In this document: positions 3,566-20,530 of the stretch, one piece after another | Position numbering within the stretch: position 1 is the first letter of the stretch | Layout of the letters: each line of letters starts with the position of its first letter | From: a virus | DNA length: 26,663 nucleotides | Virus record (IMG/VR): IMGVR_UViG_3300008459_000317 | Location: 1 to 26,663 of that record | Direction: 5' to 3' (one strand) | Notes under the pieces: generated by a model | Told to the model about the DNA's origin: nothing | Databases searched by the model: none | The model's input: only the letters and a program-made list of their open reading frames with translations | Made by a program: the position numbers and the translations under genes

Positions 3566-5406
3566 TGGAGACAAATAATATAACAAATTTACTCGGTAGT
3601 AAAAGATTCAAGTTAGGTAAAAATACTAACACTAATATACAATTACAGTTAGAAAATACAACAAAAAATCTAATTGAGTATGATGCCTTAGATATTGTTA
3701 ACTTACAAGAATTATTTGAACAAGAAAGGAATGAATGTAGTAAGTATCGTATTAACGGTAAATTAAACATTTATGTTTCTGGTGAAGTTGCCACAGCATC
3801 TACTGTATACTTAGAGGGTAAATATAGTTCATACTCTTGGGACCCATTATTCTATGGTAATCCACCTGTAGCACCAAGTAATTGGGTAATGCAAATAACC
3901 TACCCATCTGATTCTGATATTGATTTTGTTTTAAAATCAAGAACTAACTCTGGTTTAATAGCTTCTAATGCCTTTAGAGGGTTACAATATGAAACACTTA
4001 GTTATGTTAATATAAATAACGATAATTATTTAACAATAATAGGGATTCAGAATCACAATTTATCTGTAGGTGACTCTGTTTATATTTACAGTTATAATGC
4101 GTACAACCCACTCCAAGGTATACACAAAGTAAAATCGTTAGGTGTTAACAGTACGGATGAGAAAAAACACTTAACATTAGAAACAATAGTAAACCCAACA
4201 AACGTACCTTTAACTAACGGTAATTTTGTTAAAATAGTTAACCCATCTTTTGATGATGTAAACGTAAATAATTTAAACAGTTTTATAAAAGCTACAGCCA
4301 CAGATTTAAGTGGTAATACCACAGGTTCTTATACACCACAAGAGGTAAGATATACAACAATAACTACCTCATTACCAAATGATTTATTAATAGGTGATTT
4401 TATAGAAATTAGAGATTACCCAACTTTTTATTTAAACGGTATATGGAAGGTATCTAATATTTTAAATCCTAATAAATTTGTTATTAGAGCTACAGTTTCA
4501 AACACAAAAGGGGTTGAATATAACCCAACACCAACACCTAATTTTAGAAGAATTGAAGGAACTCCTTCTGAGTATTATGTTAGAAAATTTGAGGTTTTGA
4601 CTTCAAATAATTATGAAGTTTACCCAGCATCTTTTTCTACTAACATCTACCCAGATGTTTCTGATATAAGTATAGGTCTATTAAATGACACATACCTCTT
4701 CCAATTTAATAAAGATGTTAATGTAGGTAATTTAATTGATAATAGAAACGGACCCATATCTGAATTATATTACACAATTATTAAAAGATCTGGTAACCTC
4801 CCTTTTAATTGGTCAGATGTTACATCGGATTGGGAATTCAATTATAAAGATGCTAATACTATTAACGGTTTAGAATTCATCTCAAAAAATAATAGTTCTG
4901 GTATCGGTACTATAGAAAAATTCTCTGCTAGAACAGAAACAATTGATACTTTCGGTAATGTTGAAATTTTAAGTGGTGATAAATATATAGGGGATTTTGT
5001 GGAGTTTAATCGTTTAGAAATAAAAGAAACTACGATATCTGATATTATACATCGATTTGGACCCAATACCAACCCAAACGGAAATGGTTACTATTATAAA
5101 CCATTTAAAAAATTACAAATAAGGGTTTATTCTAACTTTACAGAACAGGCTGAATCAATAGATAATATTGTTGATATACCTAACAATTATGTTACATACC
5201 CAGATAAATCGATAGCGTGGAAGGATTTATTAACCGTTGGTTACTATGAAGAAGGTTCTAATGGTGTTAACTACCCATTTTTAAACGCTTCACATTATTT
5301 TTATTTTAACCATAATCTTTTTGTTAGAAAACAAGTTCCACAAAGTACTATGGATTTTAGTTCTTCTAGGTTTAGAGACGTTACAAAAGATAATTTAATA
5401 TGTTAA
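3565..5406 (+). CDS. Structural protein with two small beta-barrel repeats, function unknown
   Basis: I do not recognise this 613-residue protein as a named family. Two segments look like copies of one module: residues about 154-210 (HNLSVGDSVYI, then LQGIHKV) and about 261-310 (NDLLIGDFIEI, then LNGIWKV). The pattern of a Gly-Asp turn, a short strand, then NG-x-x-KV resembles small beta-barrel modules often seen in phage tail proteins. No signal peptide or membrane segment is visible. By position just after gp6 it could stand where T4 has gp7 or gp8, but I see no sequence support for either. The start overlaps the gp6 stop as TAATG, and the end overlaps the next gene by 7 bases. A baseplate or tail role is inferred from context. 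Confidence 0.6.
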   Translation: METNNITNLLGSKRFKLGKNTNTNIQLQLENTTKNLIEYDALDIVNLQELFEQERNECSKYRINGKLNIYVSGEVATASTVYLEGKYSSYSWDPLFYGNPPVAPSNWVMQITYPSDSDIDFVLKSRTNSGLIASNAFRGLQYETLSYVNINNDNYLTIIGIQNHNLSVGDSVYIYSYNAYNPLQGIHKVKSLGVNSTDEKKHLTLETIVNPTNVPLTNGNFVKIVNPSFDDVNVNNLNSFIKATATDLSGNTTGSYTPQEVRYTTITTSLPNDLLIGDFIEIRDYPTFYLNGIWKVSNILNPNKFVIRATVSNTKGVEYNPTPTPNFRRIEGTPSEYYVRKFEVLTSNNYEVYPASFSTNIYPDVSDISIGLLNDTYLFQFNKDVNVGNLIDNRNGPISELYYTIIKRSGNLPFNWSDVTSDWEFNYKDANTINGLEFISKNNSSGIGTIEKFSARTETIDTFGNVEILSGDKYIGDFVEFNRLEIKETTISDIIHRFGPNTNPNGNGYYYKPFKKLQIRVYSNFTEQAESIDNIVDIPNNYVTYPDKSIAWKDLLTVGYYEEGSNGVNYPFLNASHYFYFNHNLFVRKQVPQSTMDFSSSRFRDVTKDNLIC

Positions 5407-6168: not shown

Positions 6169-7992
6169 ATGGAGATTTATAAAAGAAAAGTGGGGTATGA
6201 AAGTTTTGGTAGAACAAACGATTTAGTTATTACCGCAACAACTTTAAATTTCCCTATATTTTTAACCCAAAATTTCGAGGACATAGGTATTTATACCGAT
6301 ACAGAAAATCCTGTTTACGAGATTTTAGATTTTAGTAGTGTTTGGAATTTATCTAATAATGGTAGTAATCAAAAACCTTGTGGTATATTAAATAATTGTA
6401 CAGTTAGTTTTACTGAGAATGGTACTATAAGTTATTTCGGGGCTAGTGATGGTGCTTTATCTGTTAACATTAGTAATTGTACACCAGCAACTTATGAATG
6501 GTCAGGCCCAAATAATTTTGCTTCTACCACACAAAATATCAGTAATTTAAAGTCTGGTAATTATACTTTAAAAATAACTGATTCTAATTGTGATATGACA
6601 TATGCCTCTTATTATTTACAACAACCTAGAGGTTTAGGTGCTAACGTAACATCATCGAACTCACAAGTTAACGATGTTAATGGTACTTGTAACGGTTCTG
6701 CGACGGTGGTTGTACAAGGTGGTGTACCACCTTATACATATTTATGGTATTCTGGTACAACATCTAATGTTATTGGAACAACAGATACAATAACTAATTT
6801 ATGTTCCGGTACCTATAACGTACAGGTAACAGATTCCACACCACCACCAATCGGACCTGTTATTGTATCAGGTGTATTTACTATTACCGAACCTAGTGCT
6901 TTATCTGGTTCTGTGATAACAAAAGTGGAAATTATTTGTTATGGTGAAGACAACGGTCTAATAACCATCCAAGGTGCTGGAGGTAATGCACCAACTGGTT
7001 ATACATACACTTTAAATGGTATTGTTAAAAATAGTGCCACAAACGTTACCTATAGTGGTTTAACAGCTGGTAATTATATAGTACAAATAAAAGACGACTC
7101 TGGAAGTATTTATAATTTAAATTTTAACTTAACAAACCCACCACAAATCACAACAACTTACAACATAAATCACGCAACATGTTACGGTGAAACAGGCTCC
7201 ATCTCAACCTCAACAAATGGTGGTACCCCACCTTACACCATAACATTAACAAATACTTTAGAAAATGATGTTTATGATACAGACGCTAATGGTTTAGCAC
7301 AGGAATTAACCCCTGGTCCTTATTTATTGGAGGTTTTAGATTCTAATGGTTGTACAAATCAATATAATTTGAATGTGTTACAAAGACCTAGATTAGGTAT
7401 AACTTATACAACACCAGCTTTAACTAATGGTTATAACATACCTTGTTTTGGTAATAGTGTCTCAGTTAACTTAACTACTTCTTATTTAAGTGATTCTTAT
7501 ATCACAAACCCATCAGCCAATCAGTTAAAATATTATCTAAATGATACACTAGTTTCAACTAGTTACATATCGTATTCAATACCTTCAAACATTACATTAT
7601 CATTAAATGCTGGTGATAATATTATTAAGGTTGAAGACGGTAATGGTTGTACAACAACTAAAACGATTAAGATAACACAACCAGCAATGCCATTATCAAT
7701 AACATATGGTTTAGTCAAGGTAGAGGATTCAGCTTGTGGAACAGTATCAGCACCAGCTGGTGGTGGTAGTGTGACTTGTTCTTGTCCTGGTGGTTGTGGT
7801 AGATGTAGACAAGCTGTTATCGATATTAACGGTGGTGTAGCACCTTACACAATCGTGTGGAGTGATTCTGGAGTAAATAATCAATTAACATCAGCAGTAC
7901 ATTGTGTAGGGTATTCTATCATAAATGGACCTATAACCGCTACAGTAACAGACGCTAACGGATGTATTCAAACAGTAAGTATTAGTATATGA
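6169..7992 (+). CDS. SprB-type repeat protein of the virion, probable adhesin
   Basis: The 607 residues divide into an N-terminal part (1-70), perhaps the virion anchor, and six beta-rich repeats of about 80-100 residues (roughly 74-153, 160-243, 244-324, 325-405, 408-505, 508-607). Repeats show the SprB pattern: a GG-x-PPYT strand (GGVPPYTYLW, GGTPPYTITL, GGVAPYTIVW), a loop, then an L-x-x-G-x-Y-x-x-x-x-x-D-x-x-GC ending (SGNYTLKITDSNC, SGTYNVQVTDS, VTDANGC). SprB repeats are known from large gliding adhesins of flavobacteria. Here they sit between overlapping phage genes, so this is very likely a phage fibre or baseplate decoration that binds a cell surface or glycan. The last repeat carries a Cys/Gly-rich insertion at residues 523-546. 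No signal peptide or type IX secretion tail is visible. It is the only gene here ending in TGA, overlapping the next as ATGA. Confidence 0.8.
   Translation: MEIYKRKVGYESFGRTNDLVITATTLNFPIFLTQNFEDIGIYTDTENPVYEILDFSSVWNLSNNGSNQKPCGILNNCTVSFTENGTISYFGASDGALSVNISNCTPATYEWSGPNNFASTTQNISNLKSGNYTLKITDSNCDMTYASYYLQQPRGLGANVTSSNSQVNDVNGTCNGSATVVVQGGVPPYTYLWYSGTTSNVIGTTDTITNLCSGTYNVQVTDSTPPPIGPVIVSGVFTITEPSALSGSVITKVEIICYGEDNGLITIQGAGGNAPTGYTYTLNGIVKNSATNVTYSGLTAGNYIVQIKDDSGSIYNLNFNLTNPPQITTTYNINHATCYGETGSISTSTNGGTPPYTITLTNTLENDVYDTDANGLAQELTPGPYLLEVLDSNGCTNQYNLNVLQRPRLGITYTTPALTNGYNIPCFGNSVSVNLTTSYLSDSYITNPSANQLKYYLNDTLVSTSYISYSIPSNITLSLNAGDNIIKVEDGNGCTTTKTIKITQPAMPLSITYGLVKVEDSACGTVSAPAGGGSVTCSCPGGCGRCRQAVIDINGGVAPYTIVWSDSGVNNQLTSAVHCVGYSIINGPITATVTDANGCIQTVSISI
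6388..7989 (+). repeat. Six tandem SprB-like protein repeats
   Basis: The region encodes six diverged copies of an 80-100 residue immunoglobulin-like unit. Copies are joined by short proline-containing linkers (for example LQQP, ITEP, LTNPP, VLQRP, ITQP). Conservation is at protein level (PPYT strand, G-x-Y strand, D-x-x-GC end); I saw no long identical DNA repeats, which points to old duplication or acquisition rather than recent expansion. Confidence 0.75.
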
Positions 7993-8467: not shown

Positions 8468-9352
8468 ATGGCAACAGGTAATTACGGAATTGTTAGACCA
8501 GCTACGGTCAAACCAAATGATATGGAAATATGGTACACGTTTACACCATCAAGAGACGTTGCACCAACAATACCACTACAACAATTAACACCTAATCAAG
8601 TAATCTCGGAATTTAATGAACCAGGTGCTGTCTCACTATTTGGTGGTCTATATAATTTAAAACTACCTGTAACTAATTTTTCAGCTAAAGGTATCTACAA
8701 TGTTATTATAAGGCCAAAAGAAATAAAAACTAAAATTATTGATTGTGGTGTTCTAGCAGCATTTCCTGATATTAAAGGTATTGTGTTAGATTTAAATATT
8801 TTAGGTATAACCGATACTAACGCTTTAGTTGGTTACCGTATTGAATATTACGATAATAACGGACAGAAAATACCTAATTTTTTTAGAGTAATAACTTCAG
8901 CTAATAAAGCAGAACCTGTAACCGCTAACTTAACTAATACCACACAAAAATCTATAAGATATAGATTTAATGATAATTCTAATCTTGTTTTTTGTACATT
9001 AACACCTAGTACTGCACCAAACGTTAGACCTAATAATTTTCCTGATATTGGTACACCTAATCAAAATATTACTGTAACAAACACATTCTTTAACCCAATA
9101 AGTTTGGAGATTGATATGGTTGAATATGATATTGAAACATTAGCTTATGGTGTTTTTGGTAATCAGATTAAATCGATTACTGATGGTAAATATACTATAT
9201 ATGATTTTCAAAATCGTATATATAAACAATATAACCTTTACGAAATACAAGATCAATTTACAGGTGAACCTTTACATGAAGTTCGTCAAATAGTTAATAA
9301 TATTGACTTCACAAAAGATTTCAATACAATCACTAATGTTCCGACACTATAA
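8468..9352 (+). CDS. Hypothetical structural protein
   Basis: No family is recognised in this 294-residue protein. It is mostly beta by composition, with proline-rich turns in the first 60 residues and a more charged C-terminus containing a likely helix-turn segment (YDFQNRIYKQYNLYEIQDQF) around residues 248-267. There is no membrane segment or signal peptide, and only two cysteines. It starts 2 bases after the previous stop, and its own stop is 2 bases before the gpI-like gene, placing it inside the baseplate block. A baseplate or tail role is inferred from position alone. Confidence 0.5.
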   Translation: MATGNYGIVRPATVKPNDMEIWYTFTPSRDVAPTIPLQQLTPNQVISEFNEPGAVSLFGGLYNLKLPVTNFSAKGIYNVIIRPKEIKTKIIDCGVLAAFPDIKGIVLDLNILGITDTNALVGYRIEYYDNNGQKIPNFFRVITSANKAEPVTANLTNTTQKSIRYRFNDNSNLVFCTLTPSTAPNVRPNNFPDIGTPNQNITVTNTFFNPISLEIDMVEYDIETLAYGVFGNQIKSITDGKYTIYDFQNRIYKQYNLYEIQDQFTGEPLHEVRQIVNNIDFTKDFNTITNVPTL

Positions 9353-9354
9353 TA

Positions 9355-11415
9355 ATGGGAAACGTTAAAGTAATACCACGCTCGTTAACCGAAGCGTACA
9401 AAAGAAGGGAAGGTGATTTTTCACCAAATTTAGTCGGACTCCAATTTACTAATGGTGAATCTCTTTTCACTTTTGGTAATTTTCAAATCACGACAAACCT
9501 TTCTAGTAGGGAGGCTAAAGATTTTATTTTAGGGGGTCAATGGTCTGAATACTATTCTTTAAATAATTTAAATTTAACACAAGAATCTTCTGAAATATTG
9601 GTTTCTAATGATGTTAATTTAAAACTAAATTTCAACCCAAAAAACATAAGTAGGTATGTTTATTTTGGTAGTTTCTATGAATTAATTAGAGTTACTTTAG
9701 AAGAAATTATCCAAAAATGGAAAGGTTCTTTATATGTAAATCCGTTCAACAACACCAATACTGTTTTAAATACTATATTATCATTTAGTTATGATAACGG
9801 CCAAAATGTTTCTAGTTTTTTAATACCTAGTGAAGCTATCGACAATAAATTTGAGTTAATAATTAATTCAGAAGAAGTCGATAATTTTACAGATGGTTTG
9901 TATAATATAAATAATTACTATCAAAACTATGTAATTTGGAATAAAGAATCTGATATAAAAGTACCTATAATAGGTTTTACTGGGTTAACAACTGATTTTC
10001 CTTATTTAAAAGTTATTACCAAAGGTAACCCGTTCCCACTTTTAACAGCTAGTACTTTTGCTCAAACCACTTATCATGTAATGCCTGTTGATAACGAAAT
10101 CAACCTGTTTTTTAAAGAGTTGACAGATTTTCAAAAAGTATTACTAAATAATTTAACCTCACCAAAATATACATCGGAGTTTAAAGTACCATTAGAAATT
10201 GATGGTAATATTATTTACTACGATAAATCTTATACTTGGCCAACAACAGATGGTTATAACATTGATATAAACAATTATGCTTATAGAAAGTATGTTGAAG
10301 ATATTCTATCTATGGCAGATAGTTTTGATACGTACAAAACAGATTTGGTGTCGAGGAGATTTGTTTCAGAAACTATACAAGAATATGATACTGATGGTGA
10401 TGGTTCTGAAGTTTATGGTAGAAAAGTTAAAAAACTTTTAAGGATTTACGGAAGGGAGTTTGACGAGGTAAAAAAATATATAGACGGTATTTCTTTCGCT
10501 AATGTCGTAACTTATGATAAATTAGATAATACCTCTGACAATTTAATCAAAACTATAGCTAAAAACTTTGGTTTTGATTTTTTCTTAACAACAACTAATG
10601 ATAATTTTGATTTACTGTCACAACTAGAATCTAGTAGTCAACCAGTTTTTAGTGGTTATTCTAGGAATTTATCGGCAAAAGAATTAGAAACTGAATTGTG
10701 GAGAAGACTTATTATCAATGCGTGGTGGTTATTTAAATCAAAAGGTACTAGAAAAGTTATTGAATTTTTCTTTAAACTTTTTAAAATACCTGAATGTTTA
10801 GTTTCATTAGATGAGTATGTTTATTTAGCGAAAGATAGGTTAGATCCAAGAGATGTTTTATTAGAAATTGCTAAAATAACAGACATAGATATCGATACAC
10901 TTAGTATCGAAGACTTACCGATAGACATATTTGGGTTCCCTAAAAAATTCCCAAACAGACAGGATAACTATTTCCAAATGAGTGGTTATTGGTATAATGG
11001 GGGTAATGAATCAACAGAAGGTAATAACCCACATGTTGGTCCTTATGATTTTGGTAACAGTTATATAAACCAATATAGATGTTTTTCACCTAACTATAGT
11101 TTTTATATAACAGGTGGTACATTAATAGATGTTTATAAAAATAGTTTTAACACTTACAACAAAGGAACCTTTATTTTTGACCAAAATGGGTTACCAGTAC
11201 CTTATTATGATTATGCTTACGCAAATTTTTTAAATCAAAATAATTTGGTTAAAAACATGACTATAAGTAAAGCTGGACTAACATATGTTGGTGGAAGTGA
11301 TTCTGCGTTGTATCAAACACCTAGTGGAGACACTTATTCAATGAAAATATCTTTTATAACAGCACCTAAAAATGTTACCTCCACTAACATTTATACTAAA
11401 TCTTTGTATGAGTAA
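9355..11415 (+). CDS. Baseplate-associated protein with possible P2 gpI-like segment
   Basis: This protein has 686 residues. The N-terminal half has a conserved-looking stretch around residues 98-125 (YVYFGSFYELIRVTLEEI). Residues 443-480 contain an arginine pair, a helix, then KSKGTRKVIEFFFKLFKIPE. A helix followed by K-G-T and a second hydrophobic helix is the pattern I associate with P2 gpI-type tail proteins, which follow gpW and gpJ in P2-like baseplates. The gp25-like and gp6-like genes upstream make such a member plausible, although five genes intervene. An acidic loop DTDGDG near residue 345 resembles a calcium-binding turn. The protein is far longer than P2 gpI (about 180 residues), so any relation would be to one domain. 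The CDS is certain; the gpI link is a moderate inference. Confidence 0.55.
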   Translation: MGNVKVIPRSLTEAYKRREGDFSPNLVGLQFTNGESLFTFGNFQITTNLSSREAKDFILGGQWSEYYSLNNLNLTQESSEILVSNDVNLKLNFNPKNISRYVYFGSFYELIRVTLEEIIQKWKGSLYVNPFNNTNTVLNTILSFSYDNGQNVSSFLIPSEAIDNKFELIINSEEVDNFTDGLYNINNYYQNYVIWNKESDIKVPIIGFTGLTTDFPYLKVITKGNPFPLLTASTFAQTTYHVMPVDNEINLFFKELTDFQKVLLNNLTSPKYTSEFKVPLEIDGNIIYYDKSYTWPTTDGYNIDINNYAYRKYVEDILSMADSFDTYKTDLVSRRFVSETIQEYDTDGDGSEVYGRKVKKLLRIYGREFDEVKKYIDGISFANVVTYDKLDNTSDNLIKTIAKNFGFDFFLTTTNDNFDLLSQLESSSQPVFSGYSRNLSAKELETELWRRLIINAWWLFKSKGTRKVIEFFFKLFKIPECLVSLDEYVYLAKDRLDPRDVLLEIAKITDIDIDTLSIEDLPIDIFGFPKKFPNRQDNYFQMSGYWYNGGNESTEGNNPHVGPYDFGNSYINQYRCFSPNYSFYITGGTLIDVYKNSFNTYNKGTFIFDQNGLPVPYYDYAYANFLNQNNLVKNMTISKAGLTYVGGSDSALYQTPSGDTYSMKISFITAPKNVTSTNIYTKSLYE

Positions 11416-11417
11416 AA

Positions 11418-11425
11418 TATAAATA
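11418..11425 (+). promoter_or_regulatory. TATAAATA box upstream of the first Cys-rich gene
   Basis: The sequence matches exactly the T4 late promoter box. It starts 3 bases after the previous stop codon and ends 20 bases before the ATG at 11446, so a transcript starting about 6 bases beyond the box would have a leader of roughly 15 bases. The same octamer occurs inside coding sequence at 15599 and 24822, so chance is possible in this A/T-rich DNA. Confidence 0.35.
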
Positions 11426-11445
11426 AAAAAAATAGAAATTTTAAT

Positions 11446-12639
11446 ATGGCAGATGATATAAATGTGATAATCAAGAAATGTGTTAAAAACGATAGTTCAA
11501 AGTGTCGTGAAGATTTAATATTTAAAGAAGATGGTACTGTTTTTTATTTAGACGCGTTTTTTGGTAATCTTACTCAGGTTGATAGTTTAAATTGTTGTAA
11601 AAGTTATTATTGGGTTGATGATGATGGTTTATGTTATTGGTGTCCACCAGAAGTTAAAACAATTTGTGGTATGGAATCATATGTTGATAGTTTGACTGAT
11701 ATTGAAGTTAATAATGTATCTACGATTTTGGGTTGGAATTCTAACACACAACAAACACAAAGAGATTGGTTAGAATCAATTTTAACTAACTTTTTCCCTA
11801 ACGAATGTTTTATATTAGACAATCAAAATAAAATGATTTCTAATTCCGAATGTTGTCGGTTAAGAGGTGGTAGATGGGTTTTTAACGAAACCTTAAACAC
11901 TTACTATTGTATCAATTCAAACATTTATAATACAGGTAATGTTATAATGCCATCATCTTCAAAAACATCATCACCATCAGTACCACAAAAAACATATTGT
12001 GATGAAAGTCATGTTGATGAATACCATGTTTGGGTTGATTCATCTAATAACCCTATTTCACAAATATGTTGTACCCAACTAGGGAAACAATACAACACAA
12101 ATGGTTCAATTTTAGTTTACAGAAATGGTAATTTTTTTGGGTCAAAAAATGATTACGTTGCTTTAAGTAAATATAAATCATACTGTACGGACTGCCCAAC
12201 ATCTATAAACATAGTTGGTGAGTATGTTTATAACAATGTAGATAATGTTGGTTTAAACGAAAAATGTTGTATTGATTATGATTTTACATACGATAACACA
12301 AATAGTAAGTGTGTTGAATGTCCTAGTACAACACTAAATTCACCTCAACCCGATGGTTCTACTATAATTACAACAACTTCTGGTAATCAATTACCTAAAA
12401 CTTGTTGCATTAAACTAAATAAATGGTTTAATGACACACTTAATAAGTGTTATCTATGCCCACCTTCAGATGATAACGGATATACATTTAATACAGGTAG
12501 TGTCTATACAGAAATTACATATCAAGGAACTAGTTTAACACAAGAATGTTGTGATTATTATAAAAAATCTATGTCCAACTATGGTAGTAATATAAATTGG
12601 GATGCTAATCTTGGTAAATGTTTAATAAAAAATAATTAA
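11446..12639 (+). CDS. Cysteine-rich modular protein with six CC modules
   Basis: I recognise no family. The 397 residues include 27 cysteines in a repeated plan: a Cys-Cys pair, then usually an aromatic-containing stretch and a terminal Cys that is often part of C-x-x-C-P. CC pairs are at residues 50-51, 136-137, 208-209, 274-275, 320-321 and 368-369; C-x-x-C pairs at 63-66, 247-250, 289-292 and 335-338. Clear examples are NEKCCIDYDF ending KCVECP and PKTCCIKLNKW ending KCYLCP. The spacing could serve metal binding or disulfide bonding; a cytoplasmically assembled phage protein makes metal binding or late oxidation on release both possible. There is no signal peptide. The following gene has related modules, so the two probably act together, perhaps as a fibre or baseplate appendage. 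Confidence 0.65.
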   Translation: MADDINVIIKKCVKNDSSKCREDLIFKEDGTVFYLDAFFGNLTQVDSLNCCKSYYWVDDDGLCYWCPPEVKTICGMESYVDSLTDIEVNNVSTILGWNSNTQQTQRDWLESILTNFFPNECFILDNQNKMISNSECCRLRGGRWVFNETLNTYYCINSNIYNTGNVIMPSSSKTSSPSVPQKTYCDESHVDEYHVWVDSSNNPISQICCTQLGKQYNTNGSILVYRNGNFFGSKNDYVALSKYKSYCTDCPTSINIVGEYVYNNVDNVGLNEKCCIDYDFTYDNTNSKCVECPSTTLNSPQPDGSTIITTTSGNQLPKTCCIKLNKWFNDTLNKCYLCPPSDDNGYTFNTGSVYTEITYQGTSLTQECCDYYKKSMSNYGSNINWDANLGKCLIKNN

Positions 12640-12655
12640 AGGATAAATAATAATG
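12637..12655 (+). promoter_or_regulatory. Shine-Dalgarno-like ribosome binding site
   Basis: AAAGGA (12638-12643) stands 9 bases before the ATG at 12653, between the two Cys-rich genes. It is the clearest Shine-Dalgarno-like site in the window; most other genes have A-rich leaders or stop-start overlaps instead. The overlapping GATAAATA at 12642-12649 is one base from the TATAAATA box but is better explained as leader. Confidence 0.45.
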
Positions 12656-14473
12656 CCAGTATTAAATTTTACAAATAATATAACACCTACAAGTTCTTGT
12701 GGACCATATTCAATTGGTACAGACGGTTTGGTAATAGGTGCTAATAACTTTTACTGTTGTAATAAAAACGTTATAAACACAATAAACTTACCTAATGATA
12801 AACAATATTATTGGTATGGTGGTAAATGTTATCAAAAAGAAATTTGTAATAATGACATTTATTGTGTTAATGATAATTTTGATTTTGATGAATGGAATGA
12901 AGTTTTATACCCATCATATCATAACGGTAATACATTCCAAGACGACAATTCTATAGCATATAATTTCGTTAGTCAGGCGATTATAACAGGATTTACTTTT
13001 TATGTTGATGCCGAAAACGGTAATATGTTAAATGAGTTTTGTTGTAAAATCGCTGGTGGTACTTATTTAAGTAACGGTGTTTGTTCTTGTAATAATAATA
13101 TCGTTGAAACATATTCATCTAGATGTTTATCAACTCTAGACGACATATTAGCACTAATTTCGACACCTAACGGTAAAACATTCTTTATAGAAAACTTCCC
13201 TCAAATAGGGTACTCTTTAAATCTTAATAATGATCAAATTAATTTTATTATTAGATTCATAGATGAAGATGATATTTTAAACGATGTAAACAGTAATAAC
13301 ATACCGGATAGTGTTGAGGCTAAATTAATGTTAACAACGGCTTTAAACAACACTGGTGGTTTTTATGTTGATTTTGGTGATATAACAAATACACCTAGAT
13401 TGACTACAGAAAACGTATGTATTGAAAACGGTTATTGGGACACCCAAAAACAAAATTGTATGTGTAAACCAGTTAATAAAAACTGTGAAATTACTATAAC
13501 AAACACTAAAATTAAGACCATATCAGATGAGTACAACAATCCTGTACAAATAGTTGTTAATTATTCAAATGAAGCCCCTATAGGTGAAGATTGTTGTAAT
13601 AAATTGATTGAAGATTATAACACTAAATATAAATGGTCTGGACAATATTGTTACGCAACAGAAGTAGAACTTTGTGTACCAGCAACTATTAACCTTAATG
13701 AAGGTAAAAACATGGTGGTGGAACCTTGTGATAATGATTTAAAATTATCTTTGTGGTTTTACTTTGGTACACCTAATCTTAAATGTGAACCAAAGTCTGA
13801 TAAAAAATGTTGTTACAATAGTTCACTACCCATTATAGCGGAAATAAAAACAACCGAAACAAATTTAAACCAATCTTTAACACAGGTTAAAACATTTAAC
13901 TCTGAAACAGATGGGTTTGATACTTGGGTTAGATTAGAATCGACCTTACCAACATCTGGTTTAACATTAAATTTTGGTTTAAATGTTGAAATAACTCAAG
14001 GTTTAAGTTGTTGTTGTAATTACGATATATTTGTAGACGACATTAGAGTTGATTGTTTAACACAAGAATCTTTAGTTACAATCAATAACATTAAATGTCC
14101 TGGTTTTGAAATTAATAAAGTTATAGATAATAAAAAATCTTGGGTTTACAATCCTGGTTTACCAGAAGTCGGCATATCAATATATGATGACAATGAAAGA
14201 CTTGATGGTAGTTTTGGGTTATTAAACGGTGAAGGTAGTATTAATAGAACATTCGCACCTAGTTTAGATGCTAATATACCTTGGAGGTATACTAATTATT
14301 TTGAACAATCAGGTGTTTATGAAAATCACAGTAATCTAGTTATAAATTCAAAAGAACTTTGGTTAACTTACGATATGTGTGCCAATTGTCCAATAAGTGC
14401 GACCACCTTAACTTGTCCCGAAGGTTACATACTTTCAGCTAATACAACAATTTGTTATTCAGGAAATACTTAA
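12653..14473 (+). CDS. Cysteine-rich modular protein with possible C-terminal jelly-roll domain
   Basis: The protein has 606 residues and 32 cysteines. The first half repeats the CC-module theme of the preceding gene: CC at residues 35-36 with YYWYGGKC, CC at 130-131 with GGTYLSNGVC, a single-Cys variant near 256-271 (ENGYWDTQKQNC), and CC at 314-315 with YKWSGQYC. Residues 205-224 contain DVNSNNIPDSVE, a degraded form of the calcium-binding D-x-D-x-D-G-x-x-D-x-x-E turn. Residues about 365-470 alternate strands and end CNYDIFVDDIRVDC, reminiscent of carbohydrate-binding jelly-roll modules, followed by more beta structure and a Cys-x-x-Cys segment (576-579). No signal peptide or membrane helix is visible. 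Surface or glycan binding is an inference from these weak resemblances. The two Cys-rich genes form a pair, 13 bases apart. Confidence 0.6.
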   Translation: MPVLNFTNNITPTSSCGPYSIGTDGLVIGANNFYCCNKNVINTINLPNDKQYYWYGGKCYQKEICNNDIYCVNDNFDFDEWNEVLYPSYHNGNTFQDDNSIAYNFVSQAIITGFTFYVDAENGNMLNEFCCKIAGGTYLSNGVCSCNNNIVETYSSRCLSTLDDILALISTPNGKTFFIENFPQIGYSLNLNNDQINFIIRFIDEDDILNDVNSNNIPDSVEAKLMLTTALNNTGGFYVDFGDITNTPRLTTENVCIENGYWDTQKQNCMCKPVNKNCEITITNTKIKTISDEYNNPVQIVVNYSNEAPIGEDCCNKLIEDYNTKYKWSGQYCYATEVELCVPATINLNEGKNMVVEPCDNDLKLSLWFYFGTPNLKCEPKSDKKCCYNSSLPIIAEIKTTETNLNQSLTQVKTFNSETDGFDTWVRLESTLPTSGLTLNFGLNVEITQGLSCCCNYDIFVDDIRVDCLTQESLVTINNIKCPGFEINKVIDNKKSWVYNPGLPEVGISIYDDNERLDGSFGLLNGEGSINRTFAPSLDANIPWRYTNYFEQSGVYENHSNLVINSKELWLTYDMCANCPISATTLTCPEGYILSANTTICYSGNT

Positions 14474-14499
14474 AATAATATTTATTATAAAAACAAGTA

Positions 14500-14982
14500 A
14501 TGTTAATAACATCAGCTACAACAGTAAATACGGTTAGAAACCTAAGTATTCAAGAAATAGAAACTTATAAAAAACAGTTTCAAAGTTTTTGGATTCCTTT
14601 TATGGAACAATTTATACCTGCAACAACAATATGGGTTGCTGGTGAAAGATGGTGTAACGAACCTTGTCCAATTGTTAATACATGTGAGTTTGAATTAACT
14701 AGCTCTGAAATTACTATTGAAAAAATACCACCATATTTTTTTGAAAACCCAAAAGAAAAAGGTCCAAGGGGTGGTTATGAAGTACCTAAATCACAGGCAT
14801 CAAGTGTTGCTGCGATGGGTGCTCCAAAAGGTACACAACCTACTAGTTCACCTAATATTGTAAAAACACAAGATTTGGGTCAAACTATTACCACAGAATT
14901 AGTTAGGACAGAAGAGGAAACTAATATTAACATAGCGGGTTATAGAAATAAATTTACGGCAATAGAAACACAAGTCATATAA
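14500..14982 (+). CDS. Small structural or linker protein, function unknown
   Basis: No family is recognised in this 160-residue protein. Residues 1-60 include a helix (LSIQEIETYKKQFQSFWIPF) and a compact motif IPATTIWVAGERWC with further cysteines at 56 and 62. Residues about 85-120 are Gly/Pro/Ser/Ala-rich and look disordered, and the C-terminal 40 residues look extended. This arrangement suggests a small folded head plus a flexible tail that tethers larger subunits, which is inference. The gene lies between the Cys-rich pair and the propeller gene and shares a TAATG overlap with the latter. Confidence 0.5.
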   Translation: MLITSATTVNTVRNLSIQEIETYKKQFQSFWIPFMEQFIPATTIWVAGERWCNEPCPIVNTCEFELTSSEITIEKIPPYFFENPKEKGPRGGYEVPKSQASSVAAMGAPKGTQPTSSPNIVKTQDLGQTITTELVRTEEETNINIAGYRNKFTAIETQVI

Positions 14983-17486
14983 TGGGATTTTTATGTAATA
15001 AAAAAAGTGAAGAAAAAAATGTGTCACAAGTACAATTATTTGAACAAAATTTTTTACGTGACATAGGGTTAGATAATATTATTACCGTAAACACTGATAC
15101 AAACTTTTGTGTTGAGGTTTTTAAAAACCCTCAGTTTTATGTGGAAGGAGCTACCAAGTTATATTCTGGTATGACATTAACTGGTTGTATGACAGGGTAT
15201 ACTCAAGGCATTTATAATTTAGATTATGTGTCTGATTTTAGTGTAAAATATTTTATAACAGGTAACACAAATTATTTTGATTACGTTGGTAGTTTTGGTA
15301 CTAAAACTTTTTCCAAAGACACTTTTAAAGTAGATAAAGCAACTAATTTACTTATTGATGGTTCTGAAATTATTAATAATGTAACACCTTTTAATCTAAT
15401 AAAAAGAACTAACCCTTCTTTATCTGGTGGGTCAATATCTGTTAATAATACACCTAATTCTATAACTTTTAATCAAACTAATAATAAATTATATGTCGTC
15501 AATAAATCATCGAATAATATTTCGGTAATTGATTGTGATGATAATTCTATCACAAATACAATAACTGGTTTTACTAATCCACATTCTTGTGTTTACAATA
15601 TAAATAATAATAAGGTTTACGTCACTAATCAGACGGCTTCTTCTGTAAGTGTTATAAATTGTGAAACCAATACAGTAACTTCAACAATATCTAGTGTTGG
15701 TACCGCTCCTACTTACATGACTTATAATACGAATAATAATAGTATATATGTTACTGACCAAGTAACATCATCTATTTACGTTATTAATTGTAACACCAAT
15801 TCTATTACTGCAACAATAACAGGTAATACACCAACTGGATTGAGTAACATTACTACTGGTAATACACTTTATGTAACAAATATGGGTTCAAATAACATAT
15901 CGGTTATAGATTGTGTTAATAACGTTGTTACAACAACAATATCTTTTAGTGGCACACCTTTTCAATTAGCTTATAGTAGTCGTAATAACAATTTATATGT
16001 TAATTTAACGGGTGATACTAATATCTATAAAATTAGTTGTAATGACAATACTATTAAGAAAACAATACCTATCAGTGCTTACAGTTATACTTTAACTTAT
16101 AACCAAGGTGGTAATTCAATATACACAAACAATTATACAAATAATACAGTTTCTATCATAGATTGTGATACTGATTTATTGTTTGATACCGTCAATGTTA
16201 ATAATGGGCCTATAAGTTCAATTTATAATAACTTAAATAATAATTTTTATGTGGTTAATAATTTAAGTAATAATGTTACTATTTTATCAGCATCAACCCT
16301 TTCTACTATAAATCAATTGTTTTCTTTAGGTGATATACCTAAAACATGGGGTGAATATATGATAAGAACTTATTACACCTTTTACGGTAAAATATGTAAC
16401 CTAAATACTTTCACAAATAGTTGGACATCTTATCCACAACAAAATCTTTTTGATAACGCGACTGATTATTATTTCATGACAGTTATTAATCCGCCGTCAC
16501 CTAGTTTAGCACCACCACCTATGGCACCGGTGGCTAATTATAATTTCATTCAAGATGTTTTATTGGTTGATGGATTAACATCACAACGTACTCAAGAAGC
16601 TGTAAACGATGCTTTAAATTATTTTATATTAAAAGCAAAACCGTCAAACCCCTCATTAGCTTTGATATTTGTTAACGGTATTAAAATGAGTTACCAATAC
16701 GATTATTTAATTAAAGATTCTGGACCTAGTACTCCAAGTGTTTTAGTATTCAATGATAACATCTCTATTAAAAGAACTGATATTATTGTTGCTAACTATA
16801 TTGTTGGTGTTTCTGAAAGTGCTGGTGATAGTGATTATAGTAAGTGGTTTAGTAATACTGAATCAGTAACTAATATAACTTTGGATACAAACCCAGGGGA
16901 TTTCCCAAATAAAATGTACATCAACAAAAATACGTTGACTGGTAATTATGAATTATATGTAACACAACCTATAGATCCTAATAACTCAGTTTTCTTAACA
17001 ATTAACGGTATTGAAATGATACAAGACCGACAATTTTATCTAAGTAGTTCACAAAAAAATAGAATTATTTTAGATAAAAAGTATACCGAATCAATAAACA
17101 TTAATGATATTATTTCCATTTTAGCAGTTTCACCTAATCTTATAACCGGAGATAGTGATTATGGTAGTTTAACAAAAAACCAATTTTATACTCAATGGAC
17201 TATAAACAGTGTTTTACCGGAGAATGTAACAGGTAAGTTTTTGATACAGGTTTGTGATGAAGAAAATGATTATAGTAATATTTTATATGAAAAAATGGTT
17301 AACTATGAACAAAATAAAACTGATTACGATACCACTATAACAGATATAGCTATTGGTAATTACTATAAGTTTAGAGTTTTGTTTGAAACTACTTATAAAG
17401 GTTACTTGAATAACGAAATAACAACCTGTTCATATTCTGAAGGGTATTTTAACACTAAAAGTGATTATATTAATAACTCATATTAA
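14982..17486 (+). CDS. Structural protein carrying a seven-bladed YVTN beta-propeller
   Basis: The protein has 834 residues. Residues about 151-450 hold seven consecutive blades of about 40 residues. Each has a strand like NNKLYVVN or NKVYVTN, then ISVIDC, then N-x-I-x-x-TI, the YVTN repeat pattern; seven copies suffice to close a propeller. The first six blades have a cysteine at the same place (VIDC, VINC, KISC, IIDC); the seventh has Ser-Ala. A Pro-rich linker (about 504-517) follows. Residues 558-607 and 669-716 are two copies of another phage-type module (FVNGIKM and TINGIEM, each followed by strands and a D-I-I or D-I-I-S strand). YVTN proteins are usually surface proteins of bacteria and archaea, and propellers often bind proteins or glycans. 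The TAATG overlaps at both ends tie it to the structural block. A receptor-binding or decoration role is inferred. Confidence 0.75.
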   Translation: MGFLCNKKSEEKNVSQVQLFEQNFLRDIGLDNIITVNTDTNFCVEVFKNPQFYVEGATKLYSGMTLTGCMTGYTQGIYNLDYVSDFSVKYFITGNTNYFDYVGSFGTKTFSKDTFKVDKATNLLIDGSEIINNVTPFNLIKRTNPSLSGGSISVNNTPNSITFNQTNNKLYVVNKSSNNISVIDCDDNSITNTITGFTNPHSCVYNINNNKVYVTNQTASSVSVINCETNTVTSTISSVGTAPTYMTYNTNNNSIYVTDQVTSSIYVINCNTNSITATITGNTPTGLSNITTGNTLYVTNMGSNNISVIDCVNNVVTTTISFSGTPFQLAYSSRNNNLYVNLTGDTNIYKISCNDNTIKKTIPISAYSYTLTYNQGGNSIYTNNYTNNTVSIIDCDTDLLFDTVNVNNGPISSIYNNLNNNFYVVNNLSNNVTILSASTLSTINQLFSLGDIPKTWGEYMIRTYYTFYGKICNLNTFTNSWTSYPQQNLFDNATDYYFMTVINPPSPSLAPPPMAPVANYNFIQDVLLVDGLTSQRTQEAVNDALNYFILKAKPSNPSLALIFVNGIKMSYQYDYLIKDSGPSTPSVLVFNDNISIKRTDIIVANYIVGVSESAGDSDYSKWFSNTESVTNITLDTNPGDFPNKMYINKNTLTGNYELYVTQPIDPNNSVFLTINGIEMIQDRQFYLSSSQKNRIILDKKYTESININDIISILAVSPNLITGDSDYGSLTKNQFYTQWTINSVLPENVTGKFLIQVCDEENDYSNILYEKMVNYEQNKTDYDTTITDIAIGNYYKFRVLFETTYKGYLNNEITTCSYSEGYFNTKSDYINNSY
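15432..16331 (+). repeat. Seven YVTN-type beta-propeller repeats
   Basis: Seven tandem units of about 40 codons encode the propeller. Units share N/D-rich turns, a YVTN-like strand and an I-D/N-C strand end; DNA-level identity between units is limited by eye. Boundaries are approximate. Confidence 0.8.
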
Positions 17487-20400
17487 TGGCTAACGAATCA
17501 ATAAGGATTAGAACAACACCAGGTGTTGATAAAAATATTAGAATTAAGTTAGAACAAGATTTTGATTTTTTAGAAATCCTAAGTCTTAAAATAAATCAAG
17601 AAGATTTATATCAAACCTTTTGTTCAGATTATGGTGTTGTTGTTGGTAGAGTGGTGATTAATAAAGGGTTTGGAGTACCAAACGCTAAAGTTTCTGTTTT
17701 TATACCGATAAGTAGTGAAGATCAAAAAAATCAGTTAATAAAAGATTTATATCCTTTTAAAACACCATATCAAAAAGATAATAATGGTGTTAGATATAAT
17801 CTTTTATTATCAAAAGCAACTTGTTTTTTAAATACAGCTGTCGGTTCATTCCCAACTAAAAATGATGTTTTAGATAATGATATTGTTTTAGAGGTATTTG
17901 ATAAATATTACAAATATACAACAAAAACAAATAACTCTGGTGACTTCATGTTATTTGGTGTACCTATTGGTCAACAACAAATGCATATGGATGTTGATAT
18001 AAGTGATATTGGTGCAGCTAGTGTTAGACCTTATGATTTAATAGCAGAAGGTTATCCAGAAAAATTATTTGAATCTAAAGTTAAGTTTAAAACATCTACC
18101 AATTTAGATAGTTTACCACAAATCAAATCTGGTAACAAATCTGTGGAAGTTATCCCTTTTTGGGGTGATAACGAACAGTGTGAAATTGGTATAACTAGAC
18201 TTGATTTTGATACTGGCGTTAACGTAACACCTACAGCTTTATTTTTTGGTTCTATCTTTTCAGATACAGGTAAAATGGCTGTAAACAGAGGGTGTAACCC
18301 AAAAAATGATATGGGGGAACAAGATTCTTTTAGAACTGGACCTGGTAAAATAAAGATGATTAGAGTCAAAGAAATTGATTCAATTGAATGGGCTGTTAAT
18401 AGTGTAGTAAAACCTTTAGATTTAGAAGAATTTGAACTAAATGATGGTGACTTAATAGATAATGATGGTGTTTTTGCCTACACAATACCTATGAATGTTG
18501 GTCATGCTATAACAGACGAGTTTGGGGCTTTAATACCATCATCAGACCCTTCAGTAGGAATTCCTACAAAAGGTATGTATCGTTTTGCTATGAAATTTAG
18601 TGAGGCTCCATCTAATCGTAAACTTAGAACGGCTACAATGTTATTCCCTAGTCTAGGTCAGGATTTTGGTGGTACTGGTGGTTTTGTTAGAGGACAAACA
18701 ACACCTGGTACTGAAGACCAAAGATTTAGTACTAACATAAACGACTATAACCCACCAGATATTGATAAAGAATTTCATACTTTTGAATGGAAACAATTAT
18801 ATACCATAGCTCATTTTATAAAAAAATATAAAAAAGGTGGTAATAGATTTAGTTTTGTTGGTGTTAAAAACACCGATGTTAACGGAACAAATAACTTATT
18901 TCCTTTTAATAATGCTATATGGAAATTTGATATTTTATATTATATAATAGCTGCTGGTATAGATGCTTTTGCTGCTTTATTGATGTATCTGATAATATTA
19001 ACATCATTTTGTTTTGGTTTTTGTATAAACATACGTATAACAATTCTTAAAAGAACTTTTAATATACTACAATTATGTTTTAGTGTTTGTTTATACGCTT
19101 GGTTAGCAAGACTCATAGGTACTATTAAATTACCGGCGGAAGACTGTGGACCAAACGGTGACGGTTACGAAATTAATTTCGTTAGATGTAACTCTGATAA
19201 TGGTTATTGTGGTAGTTATCAAACCCTACATTTTACTGGTGATTCTGGACCTAATTGTGCTGGTAGAACCTTTAACGCGGGTATTAGACCAGATCCTTTC
19301 CCACCTAGTGTTACTAACAATGAATGTATGCAGGCTGTTTATCAATGGCTTTGTTGTGTTAAGTACAATTTAGCTGAAACTAGAAATGTTATGAGAAGGA
19401 ACTTCAACGATGCTTGGGTTTTTGGTACAGCTTATTTATTTCAATTTAAATATAAAAGTAGAGTACAAAAGAAAAAAGGTACTTTTGATATTAAAGAAAA
19501 GTTTTGTGGACCTGGTGCTGACCATGTTAGAGGTGACAATTATAAAGCTAATACATGTTGTATAGACACTAATCCCAATACTTGTGAAAAATGTTTGTTA
19601 AGAGGACCGGGTAAAACCAGAGGACATCAGTATGTTGGTATAGCTAACTACCATGAAGTTTGGCATAATGGCGCAACTTCAGCCAAAAAAACTGGTGCTG
19701 TCGATTTAAATGATATCATATACTGTAACGCTTTAATGTCAACAAAAATAGTTTCTTTGGGTAGGATTGAAATGTGTGAAGAAACTTTAGAAAACATAGA
19801 ACTATCAATTAGAGCTAATAGAGGTATAGATATTTACGGACAAAAACCACAATTCTATACAGGTACTTTTAATGAAAGTGGTTGGGATGCTAACTATTGG
19901 ATTCAACAGTTAGATGAGAGTTCCTATAAAGACCCGAAAGATGTTTTTCTTTACACAGCAAAACGTTATGGTTGTGCTTTGAATTTAATGTTTGATAAAC
20001 AACAGGGTTGTCATGAGTATGAGTTAAAAGATGAACCATATTTTTTCATAAAAGAAGTTTCTAAATTATATACTGATATTGTAACGGTTGTTGATAATAT
20101 CGGTGATGAAGTTTTTAGACCTACAAGGATTATTGCTAATAGTCCAGATGTAGACAATCAAGCCGGAAATCCTAACGATCCTAATTATGTTACGGCAGAT
20201 GGGGGTTTTGAAGTGGATAGAGATATTGCAAACAGATTTAGTCCTTGTGGTGGTGATTCTAGTAAACCTTGTATACCGTATACTGAAACGTCTGGTAATT
20301 GGAATGGTGATAATGGTATTTTAGGTGCTGGTAATCAAGTTTGGGGTGGTCCTTGGACTGATGAACAATATTCAGATTTTTCTACATATCCTGAAGCTTT

Positions 20401-20530
20401 TGATAATATTAGAAATTTAACCGCTAGGAACAATAAAAACACCAAAAGTAATATACCATACTATTATTTCGGTATACGTCCAGGAAAAACAGCTATCAAT
20501 AAATTAAGAAAAGAGTTCTTTTTAGAATAA
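17486..20530 (+). CDS. Large structural protein with internal transmembrane helices, possible membrane-engaging component
   Basis: This is the longest gene in the window (1014 residues). Residues about 48-75 and 141-170 (GRVVINKGFGVPNAKVSVF and NNSGDFMLFGVPIG) match the start and end of a carboxypeptidase-regulatory-like beta-sandwich, with a long insertion between. Residues 481-514 and 524-546 are strongly hydrophobic, with a basic RITILKR turn between them, and read as two or three membrane helices. After them comes a cysteine-rich region (about 554-705) including CC at 622-623 and NTCCI followed by CEKC near 683-695. The C-terminus (about 720-1014) is soluble-looking. A tape measure is unlikely because the N-terminal half is beta-rich and not coiled coil. 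Membrane helices inside a baseplate-cluster protein suggest insertion into the host envelope during DNA entry, which is inference. No signal peptide is visible. Confidence 0.6.
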   Translation: MANESIRIRTTPGVDKNIRIKLEQDFDFLEILSLKINQEDLYQTFCSDYGVVVGRVVINKGFGVPNAKVSVFIPISSEDQKNQLIKDLYPFKTPYQKDNNGVRYNLLLSKATCFLNTAVGSFPTKNDVLDNDIVLEVFDKYYKYTTKTNNSGDFMLFGVPIGQQQMHMDVDISDIGAASVRPYDLIAEGYPEKLFESKVKFKTSTNLDSLPQIKSGNKSVEVIPFWGDNEQCEIGITRLDFDTGVNVTPTALFFGSIFSDTGKMAVNRGCNPKNDMGEQDSFRTGPGKIKMIRVKEIDSIEWAVNSVVKPLDLEEFELNDGDLIDNDGVFAYTIPMNVGHAITDEFGALIPSSDPSVGIPTKGMYRFAMKFSEAPSNRKLRTATMLFPSLGQDFGGTGGFVRGQTTPGTEDQRFSTNINDYNPPDIDKEFHTFEWKQLYTIAHFIKKYKKGGNRFSFVGVKNTDVNGTNNLFPFNNAIWKFDILYYIIAAGIDAFAALLMYLIILTSFCFGFCINIRITILKRTFNILQLCFSVCLYAWLARLIGTIKLPAEDCGPNGDGYEINFVRCNSDNGYCGSYQTLHFTGDSGPNCAGRTFNAGIRPDPFPPSVTNNECMQAVYQWLCCVKYNLAETRNVMRRNFNDAWVFGTAYLFQFKYKSRVQKKKGTFDIKEKFCGPGADHVRGDNYKANTCCIDTNPNTCEKCLLRGPGKTRGHQYVGIANYHEVWHNGATSAKKTGAVDLNDIIYCNALMSTKIVSLGRIEMCEETLENIELSIRANRGIDIYGQKPQFYTGTFNESGWDANYWIQQLDESSYKDPKDVFLYTAKRYGCALNLMFDKQQGCHEYELKDEPYFFIKEVSKLYTDIVTVVDNIGDEVFRPTRIIANSPDVDNQAGNPNDPNYVTADGGFEVDRDIANRFSPCGGDSSKPCIPYTETSGNWNGDNGILGAGNQVWGGPWTDEQYSDFSTYPEAFDNIRNLTARNNKNTKSNIPYYYFGIRPGKTAINKLRKEFFLE

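Follow-up and report, generated by a model that had tools for sequence, protein, structure and literature searches.

Beta-propellers have been described in several phage tails and tail-like machines. PhiKZ gp131C (PDB 4GBF) carries a seven-bladed propeller at the periphery of the baseplate, with a proposed role in receptor binding or cell degradation (PMC4901313), and propellers also occur in phage receptor-binding proteins, including Gp45 of Staphylococcus phage phi11 (PMC4901313). In extracellular contractile injection systems, the tail fibres swap binding domains, beta-propeller lectins included (PMC12923769). Propeller adhesins in phage tails are therefore already known; in the part of the literature covered, we found no account of a loop-inserted YVTN propeller that moves between non-homologous tail genes, and such a mobile insert appears to be undescribed. 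Here we analyse a sequence of an uncultured large phage, the IMG/VR record IMGVR_UViG_3300008459_000317 (positions 1 to 26,663), which carries a baseplate/tail gene module; the window below means this whole stretch of 26,663 nucleotides. The gene of interest and its parts are as follows:

14982..17486, + strand: whole gene, 834 aa; core (residues 1-140 and 441-834) with propeller insert; orthologs at a conserved gene position
14982..15401, + strand: core part 1, residues 1-140 (alignment and models)
15402..16301, + strand: inserted stretch of ~300 aa, residues 141-440, missing from ten orthologs (alignment)
15426..15440, + strand: predicted ring-closing N-terminal strand, residues 149-153 (DSSP on AlphaFold2 model)
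15441..15566, + strand: blade 1, residues 154-195 (AlphaFold2/DSSP and blade comparison)
15567..15692, + strand: blade 2, residues 196-237 (AlphaFold2/DSSP and blade comparison)
15693..15821, + strand: blade 3, residues 238-280 (AlphaFold2/DSSP and blade comparison)
15822..15944, + strand: blade 4, residues 281-321 (AlphaFold2/DSSP and blade comparison); best TIGR02276 match
15945..16070, + strand: blade 5, residues 322-363 (AlphaFold2/DSSP and blade comparison)
16071..16196, + strand: blade 6, residues 364-405 (AlphaFold2/DSSP and blade comparison)
16197..16289, + strand: blade 7, three strands, residues 406-436 (AlphaFold2/DSSP), completed by strand 149-153
16302..17483, + strand: core part 2, residues 441-834; beta-sandwich domains in series, joining residue 140 directly in propeller-less orthologs

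The inserted stretch belongs to the YVTN repeat family. The NCBIfam model TIGR02276 matches five stretches of the 834-aa protein (E 3e-32, 110.3 bits vs a cut-off of 27.85), the Pfam YNCE and Lactonase models both score over their own cut-offs, and the closest solved relative is the archaeal surface-layer propeller 1l0q (E 1.6e-30). YVTN-like motifs recur blade by blade (YVVN, YVTN, YVTD, YVTN, YVNL, YTNN, YVVN) with a spacing of 41-43, and the mean blade-to-blade identity is 37% vs 25% (maximum 30%) in 200 shuffles. In an AlphaFold2 model built from 16 orthologs, DSSP assigns to the propeller stretch 28 strands, i.e. seven blades of four with a 3+1 closure, at a pLDDT of about 90; by this strand count, strand 149-153 would be the fourth strand of blade 7. 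In the Foldseek ranking 1l0q led, followed by YncE at TM values of 0.81-0.84 by target length. The model confirms the complete seven-bladed propeller that the first-pass annotation had read from the sequence and predicts a closed ring of four-stranded blades. The coordinates of that annotation, 15432-16331 (residues 151-450), hold to within about fifteen residues at either end, with the predicted ring starting slightly earlier and spanning residues 149-436 (15426-16289) from the closing strand to the last blade strand.

The core begins with a conserved MGFLC start and a beta-rich N-terminal domain. A fold search with the model found no close solved relative of the core; multi-Ig matches such as complement C3 chains reached a TM of about 0.15 and were not accepted as evidence of homology. 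We take these weak matches to reflect tandem Ig-like domains, and the domains of core part 2 are accordingly described as putatively Ig-like. PHROGs provided no family for the propeller protein or the eight neighbours scanned, and a candidate assignment to the CIS12 injection-system family was rejected at 19 bits vs a cut-off of 860.

An enzymatic role was also considered, in which the propeller would degrade a host surface polymer as a lactonase, lyase or glycosidase type of enzyme instead of binding to it. Phage tailspikes with propeller enzymes do exist, e.g. endosialidases (PMC4901313), and models of lactonase, Vgb-lyase and YncE match weakly, but the equivalog cut-offs are far from reached, both for YncE (73.8 vs 400) and for 6-phosphogluconolactonase (PRK11028; 33.4 vs 370). 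Histidine is entirely absent from four of the phage propellers examined (L104, L105, L250 and L252), so that none is conserved, and the positions common to the phage propellers are mainly those of the repeat consensus; no ligand site was identified in the propeller. We regard an enzymatic role as very unlikely, and the lack of histidine would favour binding over histidine-based catalysis.

Single-sequence searches with the full protein or with neighbouring genes gave almost no matches; relatives were obtained with the baseplate-J gene and with alignments. The baseplate-J search yielded 59 IMG/VR loci, many with the same gene order. Among deposited phages there was no full-length relative of the 834-aa protein, the lone match being limited to the propeller. 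The human-gut phage MT836048 (26.7%, unannotated), in which only the propeller-bearing ORF matched the window, was dropped as a relative.

At the gene position itself, an alignment of 16 proteins comprises six propeller carriers (five full-length and one truncated by the contig end) and ten non-carriers, and NCBIfam propeller models match 6/16 members of the set, in agreement with this division. The site is occupied by 300-324 residues in the five full-length carriers and by at most three residues in the ten others, where the equivalents of residues 1-140 run straight into those of 441-834 midway through the motif PFxxI-TxxTIxxxFxxGxLPKxW. A model of a propeller-less ortholog places the insertion point in a short loop between strands at residues 131-136 and 144-149. 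On the alignment, then, the propeller is a true insert at one site of a tail-module protein. The first-pass annotation had described the domain as sitting "as if inserted" and had suggested a comparison with related phages for versions without it; the ten propeller-less orthologs, continuous in sequence across the site, bear this out. Of the two outcomes that it named as refuting, neither was seen: a propeller is what the model predicts, and only some of the homologues have one. A second loop, A (core residues about 59-66), carries other inserts in two propeller-less members, of 163 aa in L114 (L114:1757-2245, - strand) and of about 240 aa in L141 (L141:3843-4706, + strand), neither of which has a Pfam match over the cut-off.

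The propeller gene lies downstream of gp25-like and baseplate-J/gp6-like genes in a conserved order, within a contractile-tail module, and from these two genes onward the order is the same in the window and its relatives as far as the contigs reach. A homologue of the J gene in a Flavobacterium phage is annotated as baseplate wedge. This gene order points to a tail location of the propeller protein; of the earlier description as a phage structural protein, the phage origin is borne out by the viral record and its baseplate/tail module, and the word structural rests on the gene neighbourhood. Another tail-module protein of the window (6169-7992) contains SprB repeats (PF13573, E 1.2e-18), which are typical of Bacteroidetes gliding adhesins and speak for a host-surface context. 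Several further features were observed in this region. The gene pairs at 9355-12639 and 12653-14982 are separate in the window and form one fused ORF in several relatives (e.g. L104, L105 and L110). Upstream of the propeller gene, at 11446-14473, there are two Cys-rich repeat-like proteins with CCxxLGG/CCKIAGG-type motifs. The gene at 17486-20530 encodes a Cys-rich protein of 1014 aa that is hydrophobic in a central segment and has relatives in >500 IMG/VR stretches and no PHROG or Pfam match.

Carriers and non-carriers are intermixed both in the core tree and in a tree of three neighbouring proteins, with four changes on each, although many branches of these trees lack resolution. Forcing the carriers into one clade was rejected (AU p = 0.006), and the best-supported mixed sister pair unites the carrier L104 with the non-carrier L114 (99/98). 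Because the carriers do not form one clade, the propeller must have been gained or lost repeatedly. One explanation is an ancestral propeller followed by repeated clean loss in several lineages, with no need for horizontal exchange within this gene. It would account for the use of the same insertion site and the same domain class by all carriers, and the parsimony change counts, which do not distinguish gain from loss, fit it as well as gain. It requires, however, many precise in-frame losses, and all four outgroup-side members (L117, L137, L140 and L141) are without the propeller. We consider pure ancestral loss unlikely, also in view of the non-homologous carriers described below. The number of carriers reflects the phage collections scanned, which gave few of them, and pattern-based scans, which miss divergent ones.

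Within the ortholog group, the propellers evolve faster than the protein that carries them. For most pairs of carriers the propellers are 27-37% identical vs 37-64% for the cores, the corresponding values for L105/L111 being 50% vs 65%; in the close pair L110/L116 the propellers are 90% identical. These values bear on the proposal that the propeller is a structural spacer or decoration that stabilises a contact between virion parts of the baseplate or tail without itself taking part in recognition of the host. Beta-propeller proteins are indeed also found as purely structural parts of virions, e.g. podophage nozzles, but a required virion contact would be expected to be more conserved than a domain that diverges faster than its core and that ten orthologs do without in gene modules otherwise much alike. 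A spacer role is therefore quite improbable in our estimation.

The close pair L110/L116 is near-identical over gene residues 1-200 and again from about residue 352 to the contig end, whereas a sharply bounded tract inside the propeller (roughly blades 2-5) differs at 80/468 nt; the remainder of the gene stretch compared has 13 differing positions (Fisher p 3e-16). Since the propeller differences are mostly synonymous (dN/dS about 0.14), an imported tract would fit this pattern better than hypermutation. Diversification driven by a diversity-generating retroelement (DGR) is disfavoured: RVT_1, the reverse transcriptase model, had no match in 12 related contigs including the carriers G009, G028 and G033, records that are possibly incomplete, and most differences in the variable tract are silent. 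Further patches at L110 positions of about 4800-5100, 9000-9300 and 11700-12600 diverge from the otherwise near-identical L116. They suggest mosaic recombination across the tail region of this pair, with the propeller as one site among several.

Scans based on the propeller identified three non-homologous large-phage proteins, in L252, L250 and L262, that match the window protein in the propeller only. The L252 protein (794 aa, on a 385-kb contig) and the L250 protein (515 aa) have propellers 41% and 38% identical to that of the window, and the 1760-aa L262 protein has a propeller of the same subfamily. The gene next to the L252 carrier is a tandem paralog without a propeller, with flanks 60% and 36% identical. 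In another phage, L265, the syntenic ortholog of the L252 gene (503 aa) has flanks 57% identical and lacks exactly the 300-odd propeller residues. The propeller-less paralog and ortholog imply that the same insertion occurred in an unrelated gene, and presence and absence can thus be compared in two unrelated genes. The L252 paralogs (L252:7551-12961, + strand) are tail-fibre-like, and the second, propeller-less one has long Thr/Ala/Pro-rich mucin-like linkers. The L262 protein (L262:2485-7767, + strand) has, in addition to its YVTN propeller, a thrombospondin type 1 (spondin) domain (E 3.9e-11), and a weak SprB match, under the cut-off, follows directly on the propeller.

In a tree with 29 cellular YVTN proteins taken from a genome scan, seven phage propellers, those from unrelated genes included, group together (98/89), and WOR-3 and Latescibacterota proteins are nearest to them; long branches and repeats possibly aligned out of register make the exact placing unsure. 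This grouping makes transfer from phage to phage likelier than a fresh capture from a cell. The first-pass annotation had noted that YVTN propellers are usually domains of microbial surface proteins; a single drop-in from a cell is too simple in view of the phage group. A single phage clade is also compatible with ancestral loss; kindred propellers in the non-homologous L250, L252 and L262 proteins are inexplicable by loss alone. At the 'VIDC' position, Cys is frequent in the phage propellers of the group and Gly prevails in the cellular ones, a difference that is only suggestive because the patterns used in the searches were biased towards Cys or Ala at this position.

The same type of insert in unrelated tail genes suggests that phages trade the propeller as a ready-made attachment part. 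Its edges are similar in part: the propeller starts like (N/A/P)PS(L/I/V)xGxxIxV in the window, L252 and L250 and ends like NVT(I/L)(L/I)SA in the window and L252. More tentatively, and with considerable doubt, it may be a standard plug-in cassette of ~300 aa that moves from one adsorption gene to another, non-homologous one in large Bacteroidota phages, its specificity changing as blades recombine, so that the repeat itself would be the engine of diversification.

Taken together, we estimate at about two in three the probability that the gene product belongs to the tail/baseplate module of a large contractile-tailed phage, and that its optional propeller is an exchangeable binding module gained, lost or exchanged by recombination. 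That the propeller is optional, fast-diverging and loop-inserted is best explained by a binding role, most likely that of an exchangeable surface-binding module displayed by an Ig-like chain on the baseplate or tail of Bacteroidota myophages. Ribosomal protein bS21, a trait of freshwater Bacteroidetes myophages (PMC9723584), is encoded in 3/12 contigs tested, the L252 carrier among them. Display on the virion, the binding function with its ligand and recombination as the mechanism are what we infer from these data. The protein would form a chain of beta-sandwich (Ig-like) domains in the tail or baseplate, and in some phages a seven-bladed YVTN propeller of ~300 aa would be accommodated in a single loop of the N-terminal domain, an arrangement that should let it fold independently and project from the core. 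There it could bind a host receptor or a cell-surface polymer. Recombination between tail genes would lead to gain, loss and exchange of the propeller among phages, and recombination inside the repeat array could swap groups of blades and thereby alter the binding faces.

This constitutes a natural experiment: for two unrelated genes, versions of the same tail-module protein that contain an entire folded domain can be set beside versions that lack it, which makes the acquisition of new receptor-binding parts by phages directly testable. The system also reveals the loops at which an entire additional domain can be accommodated. In large Bacteroidota phages it connects the evolution of tails with a repeat whose blades are similar enough that recombination could exchange them.

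Among known propellers, the archaeal 1l0q is the best solved relative both by sequence and by fold E-value and shares the YVTN repeats, whereas it belongs to a cellular surface-layer protein with PKD domains and has no phage context. BtuG2 of Bacteroides (PDB 8bai/8okv) and other YncE-family surface propellers are likewise YncE-like and come from the Bacteroidota cell surface, with weak sequence (E 0.0017) and fold matches; BtuG2, however, is a cobalamin-binding lipoprotein, distant in sequence and not of phage origin. The fibres of injection systems (PMC12923769) are contractile-tail adhesins that trade binding domains, as proposed here, but the exchange there concerns the tail fibres of injection systems, in contrast to the phage tail-module protein with its loop insert, and YVTN repeats are unmentioned in that paper. 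Gp45 of phi11 (PMC4901313) has a propeller in a tail receptor-binding protein and an N-terminal strand that closes the ring, and differs in its five non-YVTN blades, its triple-helix stem and tower and its Gram-positive host. Finally, the propeller of PhiKZ gp131C is a C-terminal domain, in contrast to the loop insert at residues 149-436 of 834 in the window; PMC4901313 describes no propeller-less gp131C orthologs, and in the database searches 4GBF is absent from the 21 PDB matches at E <= 1 and from the best 60 of 82 at E <= 10. What the two have in common is the number of blades, seven, and the origin of the protein from a large phage with a contractile tail.
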